NCBI RefSeq assembly: GCF_001417735.1
Contig: NZ_BBUZ01000032.1
Span: 124,001 to 188,000 of the forward strand
Direction: 5' to 3'
Origin: Streptomyces sp. NBRC 110028
GTDB lineage: Bacteria; Actinomycetota; Actinomycetes; Streptomycetales; Streptomycetaceae
Length of the DNA: 64,000 nt
Part shown: positions 5,542 to 19,698 of the stretch, piece after piece
Layout of the letters: each line of letters starts with the position of its first letter
Numbering within the stretch: position 1 is the first letter of the stretch
Program-made: the position numbers and the translations under genes
Notes under the pieces: model-generated
Seen by the model: the letters and a program-made list of their open reading frames with translations, nothing else
Database searches by the model: none
What the model was told of the DNA's origin: nothing

Positions 5542-5694
5542 CGTCGCGCTCTCTCATCCTCTGGGGCTTCACTGTCGACGATGCGGGGTCGTGACAGGGA
5601 ATGCTGGCGGTATTCGGACATCACGCTGAGTGGCGCGAGCATCCCCGGGCCGTCGTGGGATGACTCGTGCCCGCTCCGTCCGGGTAGGCGTGCT

Positions 5695-5857
5695 GTGCGG
5701 AACGAGGAGGCGGCCGCGTTCGCCGCGGCCGCCGAGGCGCAGCTGACCGGGCGGCTCGCCGTGTGCGCGGGCAACTGCGGGCCCGGCAACACCCGCGGCC
5801 GTCATCCTCGACGAACTCGCCGACGACGACGCCGTGTTCACCGCCGACACCCCCTGA
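5695..5857 (+). pseudogene. Remnant of a TPP-dependent pyruvate oxidase (PoxB-like)
   Basis: Two fragments in different frames are joined. Bases from 5695 encode [20 protein letters not shown] and [10 protein letters not shown], the N-terminal TPP-site region of PoxB-type enzymes. Bases to 5857 encode [17 protein letters not shown] then a stop, which resembles the start of the C-terminal TPP domain. Several hundred intervening residues are missing. There is no plausible start. Nothing else was recognised in 5542-5948. Confidence 0.75.
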
Positions 5858-5948
5858 TGGGCTTCCTGCCACATACCTTCGCACCTGGCGGGTACCTGGG
5901 GCGCGGCCCGGTCGGGTCCGGGGGCCCTCCGTAGTGAATGGAGACACC

Positions 5949-6176
5949 ATGCTGATGGCACACCCTGCGGTGCTGCGCAATCTCGTCGAGCAGTACGAAA
6001 CCCTCCGGGCCCTCCACACCGACGCGGGCGGTCCTGAGGTGCGGCGGCGCATGGACGACGTGGCCTACACGCTATGCGTCTCCACCGGGACCCGGGACGT
6101 GGACACCGCACTGGCAACCGCCCAGGACCGGCTCAGCAGCGCACTGGCGCGCGACGACTCCGTCGTCGACCTCTGA
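5949..6176 (+). CDS. DUF5133 domain small protein
   Basis: The 75-residue protein begins MLMAHPAVLRNLVEQYETLR and matches the Streptomyces DUF5133 family in length and pattern: an N-terminal helix and a TLCVSTGTRD core. Family function is unknown; members often sit near stress or sigma-factor genes, as here. ATGGAGAC upstream is a weak ribosome site. The protein is cytoplasmic with no membrane segment. Confidence 0.8.
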   Translation: MLMAHPAVLRNLVEQYETLRALHTDAGGPEVRRRMDDVAYTLCVSTGTRDVDTALATAQDRLSSALARDDSVVDL

Positions 6177-6495
6177 GGAAACCGCGAGGCGCGGCGGCGC
6201 GCACCGACTGGTGCGCCGTCACCGCGCGGCTGCCGCTGGGTGACTTCGACGCCACCCCCGACGCCGCGAGCATCCGCGTGCCGGGCCGGTGGCGTTGATT
6301 CCGCGCTGTGCCCCCGGCTGGCGGATGAGTTTGTTTGGGGGTGTGGGCGCGGGGCAGGCGCTGGTTGTGCTTCGGACTGGAGGCACGCCCAAGGGAGCAG
6401 TTCGGCTGCTCGGGGTGTGCTCTGTCCGGCACCCCCCGGCAGGCGGATTTTCACTCCCGTGGTGCTACCGACCATGTGATGAGGGAGACCGCGCC
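6177..6495. other. No recognised gene between DUF5133 and the sigma factor
   Basis: About 320 bases. An open stretch ending near 6298 reads TDWCAVTARLPLGDFDATPD in one frame, but I cannot assign it and it has no start. The last 100 bases presumably hold the sigma-gene promoter; GAGGGAGACC just before 6496 is its ribosome site. Confidence 0.4.
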
Positions 6496-7290
6496 ATGAC
6501 TGCCGTACGCGCACGCAGCAAGCACTCACACGACGACGCTCCCGACACCACCGCCGAGTTCGAGCGCATCGCCGCTTTGCCCGATGGTCCCGAAAAGGAG
6601 GCGCTGCGGCAAGAGGTCGTACGCGCCTGGATGCCGATGGCGGAGCGGCTGGCGAGGCAGTTCCGCAACCGCGGTGAGTCCGCGGAGGATCTGCGGCAGG
6701 TCGCCATGCTCGGCTTGGTCAAGGCCGTCAAGCGTTATGAGCCGGACCGCGGCAGTGCCTTCGCGAGCTTCGCCGTGCCGACCGTTGTGGGGGAGATCAA
6801 GCGCCACTTCCGGGACCACATGTGGGGCGTGCACGTGCCGCGCCGGGTTCAGGAGCTGCGCAACCGGGTGCGGGCCGCGGTGCAGGACCTCACGCGCACC
6901 CCCGATGACCGCTCCCCGAGCGTGGCCGACGTCGCCCGGCACACCGGGATGAGCGAAGAGGACGTCCTGCTGGGGATGGAGGCGATGGAAAGCTTCTCCG
7001 CGCTGTCCCTGGACGCCGAGGTCTCGGGCGCCGACGACGGGTATTCCCTGGCGGATACGCTCGGCGCGCCGGAGCCCTCCTACGACCGTGTGATTCAGCG
7101 CGAGGCCCTGAAGCCCAAGCTGCGTGCCCTGCCCGAACGGGAGCGCCGGATCCTGTACCTGCGCTTCTTCCGCGAGGAGACCCAGGGCCGGATCGCCGAA
7201 CAGCTCGGCATCTCCCAGATGCACGTCTCCCGGCTGATCAGCCGGACCTGCGCCAAGCTGCACGACCAGATCGAGGCCAAGGCGGCGTGA
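6496..7290 (+). CDS. SigB/SigF/SigG-family RNA polymerase sigma factor
   Basis: The 264-residue alternative sigma factor has all regions of the SigF group. Sigma2 reads ESAEDLRQVAMLGLVKAVKR and then SFAVPTVVGEIKRHFRDHMW. Sigma3 covers about residues 120-165 (SVADVARHTGMSEEDVLLGM). Sigma4 ends with LPERERRILYLRFFREETQG and an AEQLGISQMHVSRLI helix-turn-helix. In Streptomyces these paralogues act in stress and differentiation and are held by anti-sigma kinases. No such partner lies beside it here. Start chosen at 6496 by the ribosome site; longer in-frame starts exist upstream. Confidence 0.93.
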   Translation: MTAVRARSKHSHDDAPDTTAEFERIAALPDGPEKEALRQEVVRAWMPMAERLARQFRNRGESAEDLRQVAMLGLVKAVKRYEPDRGSAFASFAVPTVVGEIKRHFRDHMWGVHVPRRVQELRNRVRAAVQDLTRTPDDRSPSVADVARHTGMSEEDVLLGMEAMESFSALSLDAEVSGADDGYSLADTLGAPEPSYDRVIQREALKPKLRALPERERRILYLRFFREETQGRIAEQLGISQMHVSRLISRTCAKLHDQIEAKAA

Positions 7291-7355
7291 GGCTCTCCAG
7301 GCCCCTGACGTACCCCCGGCGCCCGGCGGAGCACTTCGACGGGAGGCGGGCGCGG

Positions 7356-8027
7356 TCAGTTCGTGGTGCGGCGCTGGTCCCCGCTGCCCTGCCGCAGCCG
7401 GTCGGTGTGGCGGGTCATGGTGTCGACGAGATCGGCGAGATCGGCGTGACGTGCCGTCAGGTGCTGATGGGTCTCGGCGAGCGGGGCGACGAGCCGGGCG
7501 GGGTCGTCGTGGGCGAGGGCGTCCGCCAGCCGGGCGATGTGGCCATGGGCCTCGGCGGGCAGGTCGGTGAGCGCGGTGACCTGCCCGGCGAGTCGGCGCA
7601 GGTCGGCGGCGTTGCCACGGGCCCAGGAGGTGACGGTGCGGTCGGCGGCGCGGCGGTCACGGGTGGCCTGCACGCGCTGCTCCCCGGTGGCGCCGGGGGC
7701 GCCGGGCCGTACGCGCAGATAGCGGCGCTCGGCGGCCTGGCGGCTCGCCACGCCCAGGGGGTGTGCGAGCTCGGCCCAGCTGGCGCCCGCCTCACGAGCC
7801 GTCTCGATCAGCCACGGCTCCCACCCGGCGAGCTGGTCCCGCAGCTCCCGCAGCAGCAACAGCGCGCCCAGAGCCTGCTCCGAGCTGGTCCGGTCCGGCT
7901 CCGGCGCCCGGCCCGGCGGGGTGGTGGCGCTGCGCACGGCGTCGTTGATGGCCTCCAACGCCGCCGCGGTGGCGGGGAACGAGATGGGTGCGGGGTCGGG
8001 TCCGCGGGATTCCTCCGGGCTGGTCAT
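7356..8027 (-). CDS. rheA: Probable RheA-type thermosensor repressor of hsp18
   Basis: The 223-residue protein is mostly Ala/Leu-rich helix. It contains an [23 protein letters not shown] segment, about residues 85-107, that looks like a helix-turn-helix. RheA of Streptomyces albus has almost the same length, is transcribed divergently from hsp18 and binds a TGTCATC-N5-GATGACA operator. All three features are present here. It should bind at normal temperature and release on heat shock, derepressing hsp18 and itself. GAGAGGG precedes the ATG at 8027. Confidence 0.85.
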
Positions 8028-12023: not shown

Positions 12024-12042
12024 CGTTCAGGATGCGTTCAGG
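12024..12042. promoter_or_regulatory. Tandem CGTTCAGG box upstream of the first COG4705 gene
   Basis: CGTTCAGG occurs at 12024-12031 and again at 12035-12042, one helical turn apart (11 bases). This is the geometry of OmpR-family response-regulator sites. The same pair occurs before the paralogous gene at 14684-14702. The adjacent OmpR-type regulator (16922-17584) is the likely binder, by inference. Confidence 0.6.
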
Positions 12043-12135
12043 CGTCGGCTGGGAGCGTCGGACCGTGGGCGAGGCCATCGCTGTGCGCGGTGTGTCTCGT
12101 ACCCGCCGTACGCCGACGCCCCGGAGGGACCGACA

Positions 12136-13014
12136 TTGCCCGAGCCCGAAGTCCTCACCGACATCGACGTCGCCGGCACCGACAGGTACGTGCCGCGGAA
12201 GCTGCCGGAGGTCACGCTTGCCTTCTGGGTCATGAAGGTCGCCGCGACCACGCTCGGCGAGACGGCCGGTGACCTTTTCGCCCAGACCCTCAAAATCGGC
12301 TACTTCCTGACCACCATCGCACTGTTCCTGATCTTCGTGATCACGCTGGCGGTCCAGCTCCGGTCCCGGCGGTACCACCCCTTCTGCTACTGGACCGTCA
12401 TCCTGTCCACGAGCATGGCGGGCACCACGATGTCCGACTTCATGAACCGGGACGCCAGCGCCACGTTCCTCACCGATGGCGCGACATCACTCGGCTGGGG
12501 GCCCCAGGGCCTGGGGCTGGGCTACCCGGCGGGGGCCGTCATCCTGATGTCGCTGCTGGTCGTCATCTTCGTCGTCTGGAAGTGCACCGGCCTGACCTTC
12601 GCCATCCGCGACATCGTCACCTTCCGCGCCGAAGCCCTCTTCTGGGCGGCGATCCTCGTATCGAACACGCTCGGCACCTCGATGGGCGACTTCCTCTCCG
12701 ACAGCTCCGGACTCGGTTACGCGGGCGGCGCCCTGCTCGTCACCGGAGTGCTCGCCGTACTCGTCGCCCTGATGCGGGTGCCCGCCGTACCGAATGTGGT
12801 GCTGTTCTGGATCGCCTTCGTACTCACCCGCCCCCTCGGGGCCACCGCCGGCGACTTCCTCACCAAGCCGATCGCCAAGGGCGGCCTCGACCTCGGCACA
12901 GCCGGCTCGTCGGCCGTGCTGCTCATGGTCCTGGTCGGCCTCATGGGCTGCGCCCATGGTCGGGAACGCCGTACCGCCGCCGCCCAGGACACGACCCTGA
13001 CGGGCGTCTCCTGA
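12136..13014 (+). CDS. COG4705-family integral membrane protein, copy 1
   Basis: The protein of 292 residues starts at TTG, supported by GGAGGG eight bases upstream; a longer frame begins at 11974. It has about eight transmembrane helices. A motif of aromatic-Trp, then Gly-Thr/Glu and a conserved Asp recurs four times (LAFWVMKVAATTLGETAGD, YWTVILSTSMAGTTMSD, LFWAAILVSNTLGTSMGD, LFWIAFVLTRPLGATAGD), suggesting an ancient duplication and intramembrane acidic sites. Family function is unknown. The paralogue at 14726 shares the four-fold pattern and the upstream box. Confidence 0.8.
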   Translation: MPEPEVLTDIDVAGTDRYVPRKLPEVTLAFWVMKVAATTLGETAGDLFAQTLKIGYFLTTIALFLIFVITLAVQLRSRRYHPFCYWTVILSTSMAGTTMSDFMNRDASATFLTDGATSLGWGPQGLGLGYPAGAVILMSLLVVIFVVWKCTGLTFAIRDIVTFRAEALFWAAILVSNTLGTSMGDFLSDSSGLGYAGGALLVTGVLAVLVALMRVPAVPNVVLFWIAFVLTRPLGATAGDFLTKPIAKGGLDLGTAGSSAVLLMVLVGLMGCAHGRERRTAAAQDTTLTGVS

Positions 13015-13141
13015 GGGCTGCCGGAGCGGCGGAGGCCGCTTCACTCGTTTTCTTACCGCTTTCATGCCTTCTCCGCATCCGGCTCTCACCCCGCGCCCCG
13101 TAGGCTTTTCCGACCCCGCAGCCAGGAGGAACGAAGGGCGG

Positions 13142-14653
13142 ATGATGACCGGGACCGTGAACATCCCGCTCGCCGGTACCGAGCGCCGCACCTCACCGTC
13201 GGCCGCCCGGACATCGCGGCGCGCCGAAGGCCAGTACTGGCTCGCCCTCGTGGCGGGCGCCTTCACGCTCGCGCAACTGGTCCTGGTGCGGCCGGGGATG
13301 GGCCTCGGCTGGGACGAGGCGGTCTACGTCAGCCAGGTCAGCGGACACGCCCCGGCGGCGTTCTTCAGCGCGCCGCGCGCCCGTGGGATCTCGCTGCTGG
13401 TCGCGCCGATCGCCGAGTGGTCGTCGTCCACGGCACTGCTGCGGGGCTATCTGGCGCTGCTGTCCGGACTGGCGCTGTTCCTCGCGCTGCGCGTGTGGCG
13501 CGGACTGTTCCCCCCGCGCGTACTGGCCCTGGCGGGCGCCCTGTTCGCGACGCTCTGGGTGACCCTGTTCTACGGCCCGCAGGCCATGCCCAACTACTGG
13601 GTCGCGGTCGGGGCCCTGGCGGGCGTGGGCTGTTTCCTGCGCGCGCGGGCCGACCGCCTCGACCGGGCCGCGCTGTGGGGCGTGGCCGCGAACGCCGCGC
13701 TGATGGCGTGGATGCGGCCCACGGACGCGGTCTGGGTGAGCCTGCCACTGCTCGCCCTCTCGGTGGGCGTACGACGCCGGGGGTGGCACATCCGGCTGCC
13801 GCTCGCACTCGGCGCCGGGCTGGCGGCCGGGGCGGCGGAGTGGATCGTCGAGGCATACGTCAGATACGGCGGCCCCTTGCAGCGCCTGTCCGACGGCTCT
13901 CGCATCCAAGGCGGCCTCGGCTGGCACATCGCCATCGGTGACCAGCTGCGGAGTCTCGGCGGGCGCGCCCTGTGCCGCCCGTGCACCGGGCCGATGCCGA
14001 GTGCGGCGGTCACCGCGTGGTGGTACGCCCTTCCCCTGGTGGTGGTGGCCGGGCTCGTGGTCGCGGTGAAGGCCCGGCGCGCCGCGGCCACCCTCGTGCC
14101 GCTGGCCTGCGCCACGACGGCGGCGATCCCCTACCTGTTCATGATCGGGTACGCCGCGCCCCGCTTCCTGCTCCCTGCCTACGCGCTGCTCGCGATACCC
14201 GCCGCCGACGCCCTCGTCCACCTGGTCACCGCCTCCAGCCGGGCCTGGCGCCCGGTGGCCGTGGCCTTCGTGGCGCTCGGTCTCGCCGGGCACCTGGCCG
14301 TGCAGTTCGCGGTGCTGGACCACGCCGTGGACCGCACCACCGCCACCCACCGCGAGTGGGCCCGTACCGCGGCCGAGCTGCACCACCTCGGCGTACGCCC
14401 GCCGTGCCTCCTGACGGGACACGACGCCATCCCGATCGCCTTCTACGCCGGCTGTTCCTCCGCGCAGACCCGGGGCCACAACGCCGACACCACCCGGGCT
14501 CACCTCCTGCGGACCGCGCGCCGGACGCCGGTGGCCGCCCTCGCCACGGCGCACGGCGAGCCACCGGCGTACGCCCTGGGCTGGCCCCTCCATGCGTTCG
14601 GCGGGCTGCGCCTCTATGTGGACCCGGCCGCGCGCAAGGGCGTACCCGGATGA
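13142..14653 (+). CDS. GT-C-fold polytopic glycosyltransferase (mannosyltransferase-like)
   Basis: The 503-residue protein has about ten to twelve hydrophobic helices. An early extracytoplasmic loop carries LGWDEAVYVSQVSGH; an acidic pair after the first helix is the expected catalytic site of GT-C enzymes using polyprenyl-phosphate sugars. It probably glycosylates an envelope lipid or exported protein. AGGAGGAACGAAGGGCGG precedes ATG 13142. It lies between the two COG4705 genes, and with the PAP2 phosphatase nearby suggests envelope work. Acceptor unknown. Confidence 0.78.
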   Translation: MMTGTVNIPLAGTERRTSPSAARTSRRAEGQYWLALVAGAFTLAQLVLVRPGMGLGWDEAVYVSQVSGHAPAAFFSAPRARGISLLVAPIAEWSSSTALLRGYLALLSGLALFLALRVWRGLFPPRVLALAGALFATLWVTLFYGPQAMPNYWVAVGALAGVGCFLRARADRLDRAALWGVAANAALMAWMRPTDAVWVSLPLLALSVGVRRRGWHIRLPLALGAGLAAGAAEWIVEAYVRYGGPLQRLSDGSRIQGGLGWHIAIGDQLRSLGGRALCRPCTGPMPSAAVTAWWYALPLVVVAGLVVAVKARRAAATLVPLACATTAAIPYLFMIGYAAPRFLLPAYALLAIPAADALVHLVTASSRAWRPVAVAFVALGLAGHLAVQFAVLDHAVDRTTATHREWARTAAELHHLGVRPPCLLTGHDAIPIAFYAGCSSAQTRGHNADTTRAHLLRTARRTPVAALATAHGEPPAYALGWPLHAFGGLRLYVDPAARKGVPG

Positions 14654-14683
14654 GCCCGTGGGCGCGACGGCCGCGCCGCGCAC

Positions 14684-14702
14684 CGGTCAGGAAACGTTCA
14701 GG
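14684..14702. promoter_or_regulatory. Tandem CGGTCAGG/CGTTCAGG box upstream of the second COG4705 gene
   Basis: CGGTCAGG (14684-14691) and CGTTCAGG (14695-14702) are again 11 bases apart, with one mismatch to the copy at 12024-12042. The box ends 24 bases before the ATG at 14726, which lacks a ribosome site and may be leaderless. Confidence 0.6.
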
Positions 14703-14725
14703 TATGCGGTGACACGGTCGGGTCT

Positions 14726-15556
14726 ATGACATCCGAGACTTCCGAGACCTCCACGGTCCACAACCCCGCCGCCGCCCCGCCCGGTCACCGCCTCCGCCTG
14801 AACAAGGTGCCCGAAGTCACCGTGTACTTCTGGGTCATCAAGGTGTTGTGCACGACGGTGGGCGAGACCGCGGCCGACATGCTGAACGAGAAGCTGGGCT
14901 TGGGCCTGACCGGTGTGTCGCTGCTGATGAGCGCGTTGCTGGCGGTCGTGCTCGTCGTCCAGTTCCGCACCTCGGCCTACCGCCCGGGCGTGTACTGGCT
15001 CGCCGTGGCCCTGATCAGCATCGTCGGCACGCTGATCAGTGACAACCTCACGGACAACATGGGCGTACCGCTGACCACGAGCACCACGGTGTTCGCGGTC
15101 GTCCTCGCGATCGTGTTCGCCGTCTGGTACCGCCGGGAGCGGACCCTGTCCATCCACGGCATCGACTCCATGAGCCGCGAGTCCTTCTACTGGCTCGCGG
15201 TGCTGTTCACCTTCGCCCTCGGCACCGCCGCCGGCGACCTGGTCGCCGAGCGCATGGACCTGGGCTACTGGGTGTCCGCGGCGCTGTTCGCCCTGGCGAT
15301 CGCCGCCGTCGCGGTGGCACACCTCGCGCTCGGCCTGAACGCGGTGGGGAGCTTCTGGATCGCGTACGTGCTCACCCGCCCGCTCGGCGCCTCGGTGGGC
15401 GACTACCTCTCCCAGCCGTCCGGGAGCGGAGGACTGGGCCTTGGCACCGTGGTCACCAGTGTGCTGTTCCTCGCGGTCATCCTCGGCCTGGTGGTGTATC
15501 TGGCGATGACACGCAAGGATGTCATCGAGACCCGGGTCAGCCGGTCGGCAGGCTGA
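14726..15556 (+). CDS. COG4705-family integral membrane protein, copy 2
   Basis: The 276-residue paralogue of the 12136 gene shows the same four repeats (VYFWVIKVLCTTVGETAAD, GVYWLAVALISIVGTLISD, FYWLAVLFTFALGTAAGD, FWIAYVLTRPLGASVGD) and a short hydrophilic N-terminus. Its 3' end overlaps the convergent histidine kinase by 20 bases. The shared upstream box and adjacency to the two-component genes suggest the pair is an output of that system. Biochemical role unknown. Confidence 0.8.
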   Translation: MTSETSETSTVHNPAAAPPGHRLRLNKVPEVTVYFWVIKVLCTTVGETAADMLNEKLGLGLTGVSLLMSALLAVVLVVQFRTSAYRPGVYWLAVALISIVGTLISDNLTDNMGVPLTTSTTVFAVVLAIVFAVWYRRERTLSIHGIDSMSRESFYWLAVLFTFALGTAAGDLVAERMDLGYWVSAALFALAIAAVAVAHLALGLNAVGSFWIAYVLTRPLGASVGDYLSQPSGSGGLGLGTVVTSVLFLAVILGLVVYLAMTRKDVIETRVSRSAG

Positions 15557-16925
15557 CGATGAACCTCGCCCCGGGCGCGTGCCCGCTGTCGTAGGACACC
15601 TCGCCACCGGCCGCGCGGGCCAGACGCCGTGCGAGCGGCAGCCCCAGACCCGCTCCGCCGTGTCCGTCACCGGGATCGGCCCGCCGGCCCGGCGCGAAGA
15701 GCTGCCCGGCGAACGGCCTCGGTACGCCGGGCCCGTCGTCGGTGACGTCGATGCGTACGCTGCCGGATTCGCGGGCCGTGCGCACGACCACGCTGGACCG
15801 GGCATACCGGAGGGCGTTGGCGAGCAGGGGGCTCACGATGCGTTCGAGAAGGGCCGGCGGGATTCCGGCTTCCAGGCCCCCGGCGGTGTCGCCTCCCTGG
15901 TGGGCGCGGTGATCGGCGAGATCGATCGTCACATGTGCGGGGACGTCGAGGCGTTCGAGGAGTTGGCGCAGTACGGGCCGGACCTCGGCCGTGCCCGCGG
16001 TGGACGTGCCGCCGCGGGCGTCATCCAGGAGGGTCTCGCAGATCGTCAGCATGGACCGCGCGGCGTCGGCGATGACCTGGTGGGTGGCGTGGGTCTCGGC
16101 GGCGGAGCGCGGACGGGTCTGCCACCAGTCCAGTTCGGCGACGATCCGGCTGAGCGGGGTGCGCAGTTCGTGCGAGAGTTCCCCGGTGAGCTGCCGCTCG
16201 TGGCGCAGCACCGCGCGGATGCGGTCCAGGAGTGTGTCCAGGGAGGCGCCCAGGCGGGCGAGTTCGCTCGGCAGCCGCACCGCGCCGAAGCGCTCCTCGG
16301 AGGCGACCGTGCTCCGCTGGGTGGCCTGGTCGGTCATGGTGCGTACGGGACGCAGCGCGCGGCCCACCGCCAGCCGGGTGAGGACGTAGGTGCAGCCGAG
16401 CATCGCCGCGTCCAGGGCGAGTGAACCAAGGAGCAGCGTGTCCGCCGAACTGTCGTACGGGGCCAGGTCGAGGGCCGTGACCACCGTGGCCGGCTTGCCG
16501 CCGCCGCGCACGGGCCGGGCACAGAGCCTTATGCCCCCGGACCCGTGGCCCGCGGCGGCGACGGTGGCGCAGTCACGCCCGCCGCGGGCGACGAGCCGTC
16601 CGGTGGCGCGGGTGAGCGAAGCGGCGGGTGACGGCGGCTGTTCGAGCAACCGGGTGCCCGCGTAGATCCACACGTTCGCGTCGAGGAGCCCGTCGTCGGA
16701 GGCTTCGAGGACCCGCACCCTCGGGCCGCTCGTGTCGACGGTCGTGGCGACGGCGGCCGCCCGGGTGCGCAGCTCGTCGTCCGCCTGGCGCTGGAGGTGG
16801 TGGCGGACCGCGGTGTTGAACACCACGGTCAGGAGTGTCATCAGCAGCGCGGCGGTGGTCAGGGCGACCAGGGAGAGGCGGCCGCGCAAGGTGCGCGGCG
16901 CGAGCCGGGTAAGCACGGTGGTCAT
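15537..16925 (-). CDS. Two-component sensor histidine kinase
   Basis: The 462-residue membrane kinase has a first helix at about 17-38, an extracytoplasmic sensor region of about 120 residues, a second helix at about 163-185 and HAMP at 186-238. HisKA carries phospho-acceptor H252 (ELSHELRTPLSR), and the ATPase domain has DDGPGVP and GGAGLGLPLARRLARAAGG boxes. The ATG overlaps the regulator stop as ATGA. The sensor region is not recognisable, so the signal is unknown. Confidence 0.93.
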   Translation of the reverse strand: MTTVLTRLAPRTLRGRLSLVALTTAALLMTLLTVVFNTAVRHHLQRQADDELRTRAAAVATTVDTSGPRVRVLEASDDGLLDANVWIYAGTRLLEQPPSPAASLTRATGRLVARGGRDCATVAAAGHGSGGIRLCARPVRGGGKPATVVTALDLAPYDSSADTLLLGSLALDAAMLGCTYVLTRLAVGRALRPVRTMTDQATQRSTVASEERFGAVRLPSELARLGASLDTLLDRIRAVLRHERQLTGELSHELRTPLSRIVAELDWWQTRPRSAAETHATHQVIADAARSMLTICETLLDDARGGTSTAGTAEVRPVLRQLLERLDVPAHVTIDLADHRAHQGGDTAGGLEAGIPPALLERIVSPLLANALRYARSSVVVRTARESGSVRIDVTDDGPGVPRPFAGQLFAPGRRADPGDGHGGAGLGLPLARRLARAAGGEVSYDSGHAPGARFIVSLPTG

Positions 16926-17584
16926 GACAGCCGGTGCCCGATCCCGCGGGCGGTGCTGATCGTCAGCTCACTGCGGACCGCACCCAGTTTGCGGCGCAGC
17001 CGGGTCATGTACTGGTCGAGGGTGTTGTCACTGACCTGCGCGCCCTCGGGCCAGCCCGCCCGGACCAGCTCACGCCGGCGCACGATGCCGCCGGAGGCCG
17101 CGATGAGGGTGGCCAGTAGACGGAACTCCGTCGGGGTCAGGTCCACCTGCGCGCCACCGACGGTGGCGCTGTGCCGGACGGGGTCGAGGACCAGGTCCCC
17201 GGCGCCGGCCGCGGGGCCGGGCCCGGCGCGCTTGAGCGCGGCGCGCAGCCGGGCGGCGAGTTCGGCGAGGTGGAACGGCTTGGGCAGATAGTCGTCGCCC
17301 CCGGCGGAGAACCCGGACAACCGGTCGGCGAGTTTGTGACGGGCGGTCAGGAAGACGACGGGGGAGAGGAACCCGCCTGCCCGCATCGCCTGGCACACGT
17401 CCCGCCCGTCCGCGTCGGGCAGCCCGACGTCGATCACGGCCGCGGTGATGTCGCCGAAGGCCAGGCGCAGGGCGGTGGCGCCGTCGGGGGCCGGCACCGG
17501 GTCGAAGTCTTCCTCCCGCAGCCCGCGCAGCAGTACGTCACGCAGGGCGTGATCGTCCTCGACGACCAGGATCCTGTGGCGCAT
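16922..17584 (-). CDS. OmpR/PhoB-family response regulator
   Basis: The 220-residue regulator has a receiver domain with the acidic pocket (VVEDDHALRD), phospho-acceptor D52 in VIDVGLPDADG and the conserved K in the YLPKPF loop, followed by a winged-helix DNA-binding domain ending ISTARGIGHRL. GGGAGGACC immediately before ATG 17584 fixes the start. It is translated first and coupled to the kinase. Likely binder of the CGTTCAGG direct repeats. Confidence 0.95.
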   Translation of the reverse strand: MRHRILVVEDDHALRDVLLRGLREEDFDPVPAPDGATALRLAFGDITAAVIDVGLPDADGRDVCQAMRAGGFLSPVVFLTARHKLADRLSGFSAGGDDYLPKPFHLAELAARLRAALKRAGPGPAAGAGDLVLDPVRHSATVGGAQVDLTPTEFRLLATLIAASGGIVRRRELVRAGWPEGAQVSDNTLDQYMTRLRRKLGAVRSELTISTARGIGHRLS

Positions 17585-17657
17585 GGTCCTCCCTCGCTCC
17601 TTCGTCCGCGAGCCGTGGTTTCCGTGATGAACCGTGTGGGCGGCCACCGGCAGCGCT

Positions 17658-18287
17658 TCACGGCATCAGCAGCGGCCGCAGCCGGGTGGCCGCGATCCGC
17701 CGGGCCAGGGCATGGGAGGACCGCTTGAGCGCACCCTGCGCGCCCAGCGCCACGAGCGTGCCGACCACGGCACCGGCCACCACGTCGTGCGGATAGTGGA
17801 CACCGATCCAGACCCGGGACGCCGCCATCGCGACGGTGGCCACGGCGGCGAGAGCGCCGAGCCGGCGGGAGACGAAGAACAGGGCGACCGCGGCCGCGGC
17901 GGCGATGGCCACGTGGTTGCTGGGGAAGGACCAGTCGCCCGGCGCGGGGCACGCCTCCAGCGTGCTCATGTGCAGGCTCCGGCAGGGCCGGTCCTCGCGC
18001 ACCACCAGCTTCAGCACCGAGTCCACGGCATACGCCAGCACGGCGGCCACCGGCACCGCCAGGGCCGTCAACGCGGCCCCGGCCCCGGCGCGGCGCGCCC
18101 GCCACCAGCCCAGCACCATGAGCACGGCGAACACCACGAGCCCGTAGGCCGACCACGCGGAGATCGCGCCGTCCAGCCAGCCGGGGGCGCGATGCGACAG
18201 GTCCACGACGGCCGTGTAGGCCGACGCGTCGAGGGACGAGCCGTCGACCGCGAGCTGTGATGCTTCGGCGAAGGGGGGTGCTGCCAT
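17658..18287 (-). CDS. PAP2-superfamily membrane phosphatase
   Basis: The 209-residue polytopic enzyme has the three phosphatase motifs in order: KLVVREDRP, FPSNHVA (the PSGH variant with Asn) and SRVWIGVHYPHD. It would hydrolyse a lipid phosphate or pyrophosphate such as phosphatidate or undecaprenyl pyrophosphate at the membrane surface. GAGAGGG supports ATG 18287; ATG 18305 is an alternative. It ends 73 bases upstream of the response regulator in the same direction and may be cotranscribed with it. Confidence 0.9.
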   Translation of the reverse strand: MAAPPFAEASQLAVDGSSLDASAYTAVVDLSHRAPGWLDGAISAWSAYGLVVFAVLMVLGWWRARRAGAGAALTALAVPVAAVLAYAVDSVLKLVVREDRPCRSLHMSTLEACPAPGDWSFPSNHVAIAAAAAVALFFVSRRLGALAAVATVAMAASRVWIGVHYPHDVVAGAVVGTLVALGAQGALKRSSHALARRIAATRLRPLLMP

Positions 18288-18341
18288 CGGCGCGGGCCCT
18301 CTCATACTGGACGGACGGGCGCCGAAACGGCACCCGAGTGA

Positions 18342-18376
18342 CTACAATCCTGTAGACGGTCTACTGAACTGTAGAC
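18342..18376. promoter_or_regulatory. BlaI-type operator cluster
   Basis: Overlapping palindromes are present: CTACA-N4-TGTAG (18342-18355), GTAGAC-G-GTCTAC (18352-18364) and GTCTAC-N6-GTAGAC (18359-18376). BlaI/MecI proteins bind TACA/TGTA dyads of this type. The cluster sits between the PAP2 gene and blaI-like gene and could control both. Confidence 0.7.
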
Positions 18377-18400
18377 GATGGCGGGGTGAGGATCGTTCCC

Positions 18401-18772
18401 ATGACCGACGAGAAGGACGAACGGCGCCCGGCGGGCGAGCTGGAAGCCGCCGTCATGGCCGCCCTGTGGGCCGCTGACGCGCCGCTCACCCCCGGCCGCG
18501 TGCAGCTCGAACTCGGCGTCGGCCTGGCGCGTACGACGGTGACGACGATCCTGTCCCGCCTGCACGACAAGGGCGTGGTCGGCCGCGAGCGGCAGGGCCG
18601 CGGCTACGCGTACTTCCCCGTCCAGGACGCCCCCGGGCTCACCGCCCGGCGCATGCACGGGGAACTGGCGCGGGACACCGACCGGGAGACGGTCCTGGCC
18701 CGGTTCGTCGCCCAGCTCAGCGCCGACGACGAGCAGGTGCTGCGCCGGCTGCTGGAAGCGGAGGAGCGGTGA
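18401..18772 (+). CDS. BlaI/MecI/CopY-family repressor
   Basis: The 123-residue winged-helix repressor begins MTDEKDERRPAGELEAAVMAAL, with recognition region ARTTVTTILSRLHDKGVVGRERQGR, the hallmark of the family, and a C-terminal dimerisation helix. GAGG nine bases upstream favours ATG 18401 over GTG 18386. It is coupled to the following M56 peptidase gene, which would cleave or trigger loss of the repressor. Confidence 0.92.
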   Translation: MTDEKDERRPAGELEAAVMAALWAADAPLTPGRVQLELGVGLARTTVTTILSRLHDKGVVGRERQGRGYAYFPVQDAPGLTARRMHGELARDTDRETVLARFVAQLSADDEQVLRRLLEAEER

Positions 18773-19698
18773 GCGCCCTGCTGCTGGTCCCCCTGCTGCT
18801 GCCCTTCGCGGCACCGCCGTCGGCCCGGCACACCCTCGCCCGCCTGGACCCGGTCACCGCGCTGTGGGTGCTGACCGCCTCCGCCCTGCTGCTGGCCGGC
18901 GCGTGCGTGGCCGCCCTGGGCGCCCTGGTGCTGACCGGACTGCTCACGTTCCCCCCGTTCGCGGCGCTCGGCGAGCTGGTCCACCCCCTGCGCACCCCCT
19001 CCGGCCTGCTCGTCCTGCCCGCGGCCGCGCTGGCCACCGGCGCGCTCACCGTCTGCGTCTGGACCCTCGGACGTTCGGCCCTCCGTCAGGCCCGCACCTT
19101 CCGCACCGCCCGTAGCCAGGCCGAAAGCCGCCCCGCCGCGGGGGACCTGTGCGTCATCGACTCGCCCCACCCGGACGCGTACGCGCTGCCCGGCCGCCCG
19201 CAGCGCATCGTCGTCACCACCGCCATGCTGCGCAGCCTCGACCCGGCCGAGCGCGAGGCGCTCTTCGCCCATGAGCGCGCCCACAACCGGGCCGGCCACC
19301 ACTACTTCCTCGCCGCCGCCGAACTCGCCGCCCACTGCCACCCCGCCCTGCGCGGGCTGCGCGCCGACATCCGGCTCGCCGCCGAACGCGCCGCCGACGA
19401 GGCCGCCGCCGGGGCCGTCGGCGACCGGCACCTCACGGCCAGGGCCATCGCCCGGGCCGCGCTGGCCGGTCATGCCTCGCCTTCCGCCCGCCCGGACTTC
19501 GCGGCCGCGGCGGCCGCCGGCCCGGTCCCGCGGCGCGTCGCCGCGCTCCTGGCGCCCGGGGGGCGACCGGCCCCGGTCAGGCGCGGCGCCGCCCTGCTCC
19601 TGGCCGTCTGCGCGCTCCTGTCGGCAGGCGCCGCGACGACCGATGTGCTCGCCTTCCATCACGACGTCGAAGTCGCCCAAGGGGAGGAGAGCCGCTGA
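18769..19698 (+). CDS. M56 (BlaR1-like) membrane metallopeptidase
   Basis: The 309-residue protein has N-terminal helices, a cytoplasmic zinc peptidase loop with HERAH (HExxH form) and an E-rich helix downstream (RLAAERAADEAAAG) that can give the third ligand, then a C-terminal helix. The GTG start overlaps the blaI-like stop. There is no penicillin-binding sensor domain after the last helix, so the signal is probably not a beta-lactam bound covalently. It works with the repressor as a proteolytic switch. Confidence 0.88.
   Translation: MSALLLVPLLLPFAAPPSARHTLARLDPVTALWVLTASALLLAGACVAALGALVLTGLLTFPPFAALGELVHPLRTPSGLLVLPAAALATGALTVCVWTLGRSALRQARTFRTARSQAESRPAAGDLCVIDSPHPDAYALPGRPQRIVVTTAMLRSLDPAEREALFAHERAHNRAGHHYFLAAAELAAHCHPALRGLRADIRLAAERAADEAAAGAVGDRHLTARAIARAALAGHASPSARPDFAAAAAAGPVPRRVAALLAPGGRPAPVRRGAALLLAVCALLSAGAATTDVLAFHHDVEVAQGEESR

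Follow-up and report, generated by a model that had tools for sequence, protein, structure and literature searches.

A TCAGG direct repeat conserved upstream of Streptomyces DUF347 genes is the probable operator of a neighbouring OmpR/PhoB-family regulator

We analysed a 64,000-nucleotide stretch of the genome of Streptomyces sp. NBRC 110028 (contig NZ_BBUZ01000032.1, positions 124,001 to 188,000; hereafter the window), in which two paralogous DUF347 genes, A and B, are each preceded by the same direct repeat. The evidence below indicates that this repeat is very probably the operator of the adjacent OmpR/PhoB-family response regulator, which would activate both genes. An original prediction, made from the letters of the window alone, had proposed such a regulon. 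The repeats it noticed do lie before two COG4705/DUF347 genes, with half-sites 11 bp apart from start to start, and the regulator and kinase genes that it named directly adjoin them and carry the expected domains. The features in question are as follows.

12024-12042, plus strand: putative response-regulator box before A, CGTTCAGGATGCGTTCAGG, which reads CGTTCAGG-ATG-CGTTCAGG
12050-12058, plus strand: extended -10-like element TGGGAGCGT, 7 nt 3' of box A and weaker than the consensus TGNCANNNT; putative promoter element by its spacing
12136-13014, plus strand: DUF347 paralogue A, MmfC2-like (PF03988 match, tree), with a TTG start and GGAGG upstream
14684-14702, plus strand: putative response-regulator box before B, CGGTCAGGAAACGTTCAGG, which reads CGGTCAGG-AAA-CGTTCAGG
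14710-14718, plus strand: extended -10 element TGACACGGT, 7 nt 3' of box B, with a predicted transcript start
14726-15556, plus strand: DUF347 paralogue B, MmfC1-like, with eight predicted helices (PF03988 match, tree, structure model)
15537-16925, minus strand: sensor histidine kinase (HisKA and HATPase_c domain matches), with two co-conserved extracytoplasmic cysteines in the alignment
16922-17587, minus strand: OmpR/PhoB-family response regulator (Response_reg and Trans_reg_C domain matches), recognition helix VSDNTLDQYMTRLRRKL

The repeat marks the DUF347 genes of this genome

Box A ends 94 bp 5' of the TTG at 12136, and the second repeat of box B ends 24 bp 5' of the ATG at 14726. When both strands of the window were searched for TCAGGN5[GT]TCAGG with at most one mismatch, the two boxes were the sole matches. 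A search for the 19-base pattern with three mismatches tolerated returned 6 matches in the window, compared with 2.3 expected from shuffles; such loose matches are therefore uninformative, unlike the exact ones. The Streptomyces Pho box, the site of PhoP, consists of 11-bp repeats of GTTCACC, and MtrA-type sites are GTnAC repeats. We considered whether the boxes might be Pho boxes; they read GGTCAGG or GTTCAGG rather than GTTCACC, and this identity was rejected.

A scan of the whole genome (8.92 Mb in 96 contigs) found nine TCAGGN5[GT]TCAGG sites, five of which have TTCAGG as the second half. Four of these five TCAGGN5TTCAGG copies precede the four DUF347 genes, two of which belong to the window and two to a diverged duplicate of the cluster located on a different contig. 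The fifth coincides with the beginning of an MFS-type reading frame and looks incidental. The occurrence of the repeat before DUF347 genes is not a matter of chance. The earlier proposal of a regulon with two outputs thus fits the exact repeat in the window and falls short for the genome, where the DUF347 targets number four, spread over two clusters, and weaker sites may exist. In the second cluster (L024:5439-7473), the regulator and both DUF347 genes look intact. Its kinase gene is divided between two reading frames (5627-6949 and 6883-7473), and may therefore be broken or mis-sequenced.

The repeat is conserved across Streptomyces DUF347 loci

To the window and the second copy we added 80 DUF347 loci from named organisms, the best 80 of a larger number of matches, giving 82 loci. 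We counted all pairs of 5-mers at spacings of 8 to 14 in the 350-bp upstream regions, with no prior motif. TCAGG followed by TTCAG at 10, which is the same 11-bp repeat, appeared in 69 of 88 Streptomyces-type upstream regions, compared with 5 to 6 for the best pair in each of five shuffles. Three more DUF347 frames were left out because their anchor motif was not found; the site is present in two of them.

The original prediction named loss of the repeat upstream of orthologues as one finding that would overturn it, and it withstood this check. Among the Streptomyces loci, 41 of 47 B regions and 20 of 25 A regions carry the exact repeat, and several of the misses differ by a single base. It is found less often before more distant Streptomyces DUF347 genes (5/16) and outside Streptomyces (6/37), where, as elsewhere, the regions without an exact repeat include both one-mismatch sites and true absences. 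In the 1.24 Mb covered by all loci, 73 of 86 sites lie within 350 bp before an anchored DUF347 gene, a density about 300-fold that of the remaining sequence. Five of the other 13 precede unanchored or decayed DUF347 genes.

At three loci (L047, L053 and L064), the site with its promoter element lies 330-470 bp before a DUF347 frame and leads into short frames that resemble the start of gene B, followed by unrelated sequence and then by another DUF347 gene. We read these short frames as probable decayed copies of B with a preserved promoter.

The repeat takes the place of a -35 element

Across relatives, the core of the box is TCAGG-N6-TCAGG, and a -10 element at fixed distance is part of the site; we refer to the TCAGG repeat together with the extended -10 TGNCANNNT at that distance as the composite site. 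Among 72 box-bearing regions, TGNCANNNT stands exactly 7 nt 3' of the second half-site in 56, a weaker form occupies the same position in 4, and neither form is present in 12. No -35 element other than the box itself was recognisable in the box-bearing promoters. Repeats that replace the -35 at a set distance from the -10 are the hallmark of PhoB-type activation, and for this reason we consider activation likelier than repression. The OmpR-style spacing first noticed in the window is backed by a complete OmpR/PhoB-type promoter layout of 11-bp-spaced direct repeats at a fixed -10 distance. At one locus (L027), three tandem TCAGG half-sites rather than two lie at 11-bp spacing upstream of the A gene.

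The two genes appear to differ in their leaders. In 34 of the 44 B genes that have the element, the ATG lies 8 nt past the last T of the -10, and inspection of the window letters revealed no evident ribosome-binding sequence before the ATG of B. The transcript of B would thus start a few nucleotides from its ATG, making B probably leaderless or nearly so. For gene A the predicted leader spans about 70 nt, and GGAGG stands before its TTG start.

The site, DUF347 genes and the regulator go together in genome content

In 121 congeneric genomes, we found 34 composite sites in 22 genomes and none with the reversed control; 32 of the 34 precede a DUF347 match by no more than 250 bp. A protein B match occurs in 31 of the 121, and all 22 genomes with a site are among these 31. 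Of the two exceptional sites, one precedes a DUF347 match at the longer distance of about 0.5 kb, and the other is considered below. A class-wide search showed that the strict composite is mostly confined to Streptomyces.

The regulator of the window matches PF00072 (61.8 bits) and PF00486 (70.7 bits), both above cut-off. Orthologues with 67-100% identity are encoded in 24 of the 121 congeneric genomes, all with DUF347, and in none of the 90 genomes lacking a DUF347 match. The composite site is present in 20 of these 24 genomes, and conversely the orthologue is present in 20 of the 22 site genomes. The four orthologue genomes without the composite site are G059, which has a near site with one mismatch, G077, which has an intact repeat with a changed -10, G068 and G080. 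Of the two site genomes without the orthologue, G028 belongs to a divergent type, and in G011 the site precedes the gene of a different regulator. For nine fetched loci with no orthologous regulator nearby, the orthologue was found elsewhere in the genome in eight. Site, DUF347 genes and regulator therefore go together in genome content.

The recognition helix tells the same story. In box-bearing loci it is near-constant, reading VSDNTLDQYLxRLRRKL with close variants (pattern V[SH]DNTLDxY..RLRRKL), whereas proteobacterial mmf-type loci, which lack the box, have the quite different helix EVESNAVDFLIHGVRRKL. The proposed pairing of the repeat with this particular regulator is thus borne out by both genome content and recognition helix. 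Among 39 aligned kinases, the two extracytoplasmic cysteines are both present in 34 and both absent in 5; because they are kept or lost jointly, they probably act together, perhaps forming a disulfide or binding a metal.

Proteins B and A are the counterparts of MmfC1 and MmfC2

Both A and B belong to PF03988/DUF347 (COG4705-type), with four repeats each and two helices per repeat. Eight helices are present in the structure model of B (pLDDT 87.4, pTM 0.82), and its conserved acidic residues E47, D51, D106, D171 and D226 are candidate metal sites. Searches for structural relatives yielded none of use: the best Foldseek E-value was 0.64, no PDB chain was found by sequence, and the best VIA-align Z-score was 7.2 over 128 residues, in the uninformative range and mostly against halves of MFS transporters.

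The proteins MmfC1 and MmfC2 are encoded by the mmf cluster, known from Tn6048 of the metal-resistant Cupriavidus metallidurans and from IncP plasmids, which we read in plasmid pBYT1-2 (L116), where the gene lengths equal those of the published table. B is 54% identical to MmfC1, and A is 41% identical to MmfC2. A tree was built from 69 proteins, a set thinned from 116; in it the A-like sequences, including MmfC2, form a single group with support of 100/100; MmfC1 is placed less surely among the B-like proteins because of its long branch. Each of the two groups holds both actinobacterial and proteobacterial members. By sequence, the window pair corresponds to MmfC1 (B) and MmfC2 (A), and the conservation of this pairing under different regulators suggests that the two proteins are a functional unit.

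In the available text of two studies, mmf is induced by Pb and Zn (PMC2864759; PMC12029693), and one of them states its function to be unknown (PMC12029693). One of our loci comes from a species named plumbidurans, a name that suggested lead tolerance, on which a literature search gave no data.

A BlaI-type repressor probably adds a second layer

The remainder of the cluster contains the following features.

13142-14653, plus strand: multi-spanning glycosyltransferase-like protein (weak PF03901 profile match, below cut-off)
17658-18305, minus strand: PAP2-family phosphatase (profile match); its best weak NCBIfam matches, below cut-off, are undecaprenyl-diphosphatases
18342-18376: double dyad CTACA-N4-TGTAG (18342-18355) and GTCTAC-N6-GTAGAC (18359-18376), a probable BlaI-type operator between divergent units
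18386-18772, plus strand: BlaI/CopY-type repressor (Penicillinase_R, 90.1 bits)
18769-19698, plus strand: membrane metalloprotease with a weak HtpX-type match, which from gene order we take to be M56-like

The glycosyltransferase-like neighbour recurs in 10 of 50 Streptomyces loci. The M56-like protein is likely the partner of the BlaI-type repressor. TACA/TGTA-type dyads are typical of BlaI/MecI/CopY repressors, and here both a Penicillinase_R domain and such a dyad at the divergent promoter of the repressor gene were found. The loci contain 21 BlaI-type genes scoring at least 90 bits, and 8 of these have at least one dyad. All eight (in the window, the second copy and six others) are divergent from a DedA/PAP2 operon, and one of the seven beyond the window has a single dyad. 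Among the 13 without a dyad, the gene at L060, and probably that at L038, also neighbours such an operon.

Near the start of the PAP2-regulator-kinase operon we found no TCAGG repeat with up to two mismatches; the operon begins instead at the conserved double dyad beside the repressor gene. The arrangement suggests that the BlaI-type repressor is likely to control the operon that makes the regulator. If so, the regulon would not be self-contained, as had been supposed, and would probably be nested.

Proposed mechanism and alternative explanations

Our preferred model is as follows. A signal at the kinase would lead to phosphorylation of the regulator, two molecules of which would occupy the two TCAGG half-sites in a head-to-tail arrangement, separated by one helical turn, at the -35 place. 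The bound regulator would recruit RNA polymerase to the extended -10 located 7 nt past the second half-site. A and B would both be activated, with almost no leader on the transcript of B and roughly 70 nt of leader on that of A, and their products, with the PAP2 phosphatase, would protect against metal or envelope stress. The regulator-kinase-phosphatase operon would itself probably be under the BlaI-type repressor.

Several observations weigh against this interpretation. Within the 31 DUF347 genomes, the association of site and regulator is modest (P 0.012), so that the genome-wide signal is for the most part shared with DUF347 presence. At L065 and L084 the regulator type occurs in the absence of a good box. 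The exceptional composite site in G011 (L129, G011:C8:152998-153028) precedes a different OmpR-type regulator gene, which suggests that related regulators may share the TCAGG box, perhaps for self-regulation. Class-wide, the strict composite occurs in only 6 of 296 genomes, though 76 have DUF347, and two of the nine sites (in G150 and G158, for which no DUF347 match is listed) lie elsewhere. As to the role, the window regulator shares only 37% identity with MmfR, and the kinase only 24% with MmfS, so the signal need not match that of mmf, and the available text of a plasmid study ties mmf to Fe/V capture or uptake and to bacitracin resistance (PMC4914505). At the G150 site (L132, G150:C3:146829-146860), a threefold TCAGG-type repeat lies before a gene for a small membrane or secreted protein of another family.

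Direct repeats spaced by 11 bp are used by many OmpR-family regulators, and a different one, for instance the global PhoP or MtrA, might bind the repeat while the neighbouring two-component system only travels along. The modest association and the G011 site would fit this; however, 20 genomes are common to the 22 with the site and the 24 with the regulator, the orthologue is wholly absent from genomes without a DUF347 match, as a global regulator would not be, and the TCAGG core is unlike both the Pho box and MtrA-type repeats, so we consider this explanation unlikely. Slightly less probable still is that the regulator acts as a repressor, its box overlapping the promoter and the bound protein blocking polymerase until the signal removes it. 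The box does lie in the promoter region, but the lack of another recognisable -35 and the constant 7-nt spacing are those of an activator that replaces the -35. It is very improbable that the repeats were merely passed on along with the duplicated genes and no longer serve a function: A and B are paralogues, and this genome has a duplicate cluster, yet the A-like and B-like groups are separate and their flanks differ, while many Streptomyces have retained the box, the spacing and the -10 in both. We therefore retain the adjacent regulator as the probable activator.

The role of the pair is less certain than the operator, because it rests on homology of the targets and the regulators are not close. 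The most likely role is protection against divalent metals, for example Pb and Zn, given that mmf, whose MmfC1 and MmfC2 are the counterparts of the pair, is induced by metals; we put it at roughly an even chance. It is also possible, if less probable, that the output is a defence against cell-wall (undecaprenyl lipid) stress for which metals and bacitracin are only triggers, a reading compatible with the operator model. The PAP2 phosphatase and DedA genes beside the regulator and the BlaI/M56 pair point in this direction, as does the minimal inhibitory concentration of bacitracin for pHB44, which carries mmf (300 vs 40 ug/ml in the available text of PMC4914505); on the other hand, the box is carried by the DUF347 genes and not by the phosphatase, and mmf is reported to be induced by Pb and Zn. 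Combining these threads, we offer only tentatively a two-tier switch, in which the BlaI-type repressor and its protease would gate the phosphatase-sensor-regulator operon and the regulator would activate the DUF347 pair. The pair might then be a new class of divalent-metal exporter, with the lipid-carrier phosphatase supplying phosphate for extracellular metal precipitation. In Proteobacteria, mmf carries the same pair and places it under another regulator.

DUF347 proteins are widespread and uncharacterised. An exact and narrow operator such as this would provide a clean reporter for finding the signal, together with a small set of genes to delete.

Comparison with known systems

None of the parts described here is new in kind. 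The portions consulted of the open-licence literature on DUF347, Tn6048, mmfC1 and mmfR contained no account of the regulon, of its operator or of the link between the Streptomyces cluster and mmf. As at PhoB/PmrA-type activator promoters, two 11-bp direct repeats occupy the -35 place at a fixed distance from the -10, and what differs is the TCAGG half-site, the extended -10 TGNCANNNT and the DUF347 target family.

In the available text of a study of Frankia, lead-induced operons likewise bring together a phosphatase (UppP) and DUF347, which were proposed to act as a metal export and precipitation system; unlike here, no regulator or operator is described in that text (PMC4531530).

The mmf cluster shares with the window the DUF347 pair, a PAP2-family phosphatase and an OmpR-type regulator with its kinase. 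Its genes stand in one row (in pBYT1-2: PepSY, PAP2 phosphatase, DUF347, small protein, DUF347, regulator, kinase), whereas here there are two box-driven genes and a convergent regulator operon. No PepSY match was found among the 10 window proteins scanned against Pfam; the scan left out the rest of the window proteins, and no search aimed at MmfD was made. Upstream of mmfA there is no 11-bp repeat of six exact bases, so that the box of MmfR was not found, and only chance-looking repeats of this kind precede proteobacterial DUF347 genes. The low identity of the regulator and kinase to MmfR and MmfS and the different recognition helix do not support orthology with them, and BlaI/M56 and DedA genes were seen only on the Streptomyces side. 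The closest label for the system in the window is a Streptomyces variant of the mmf-type module.

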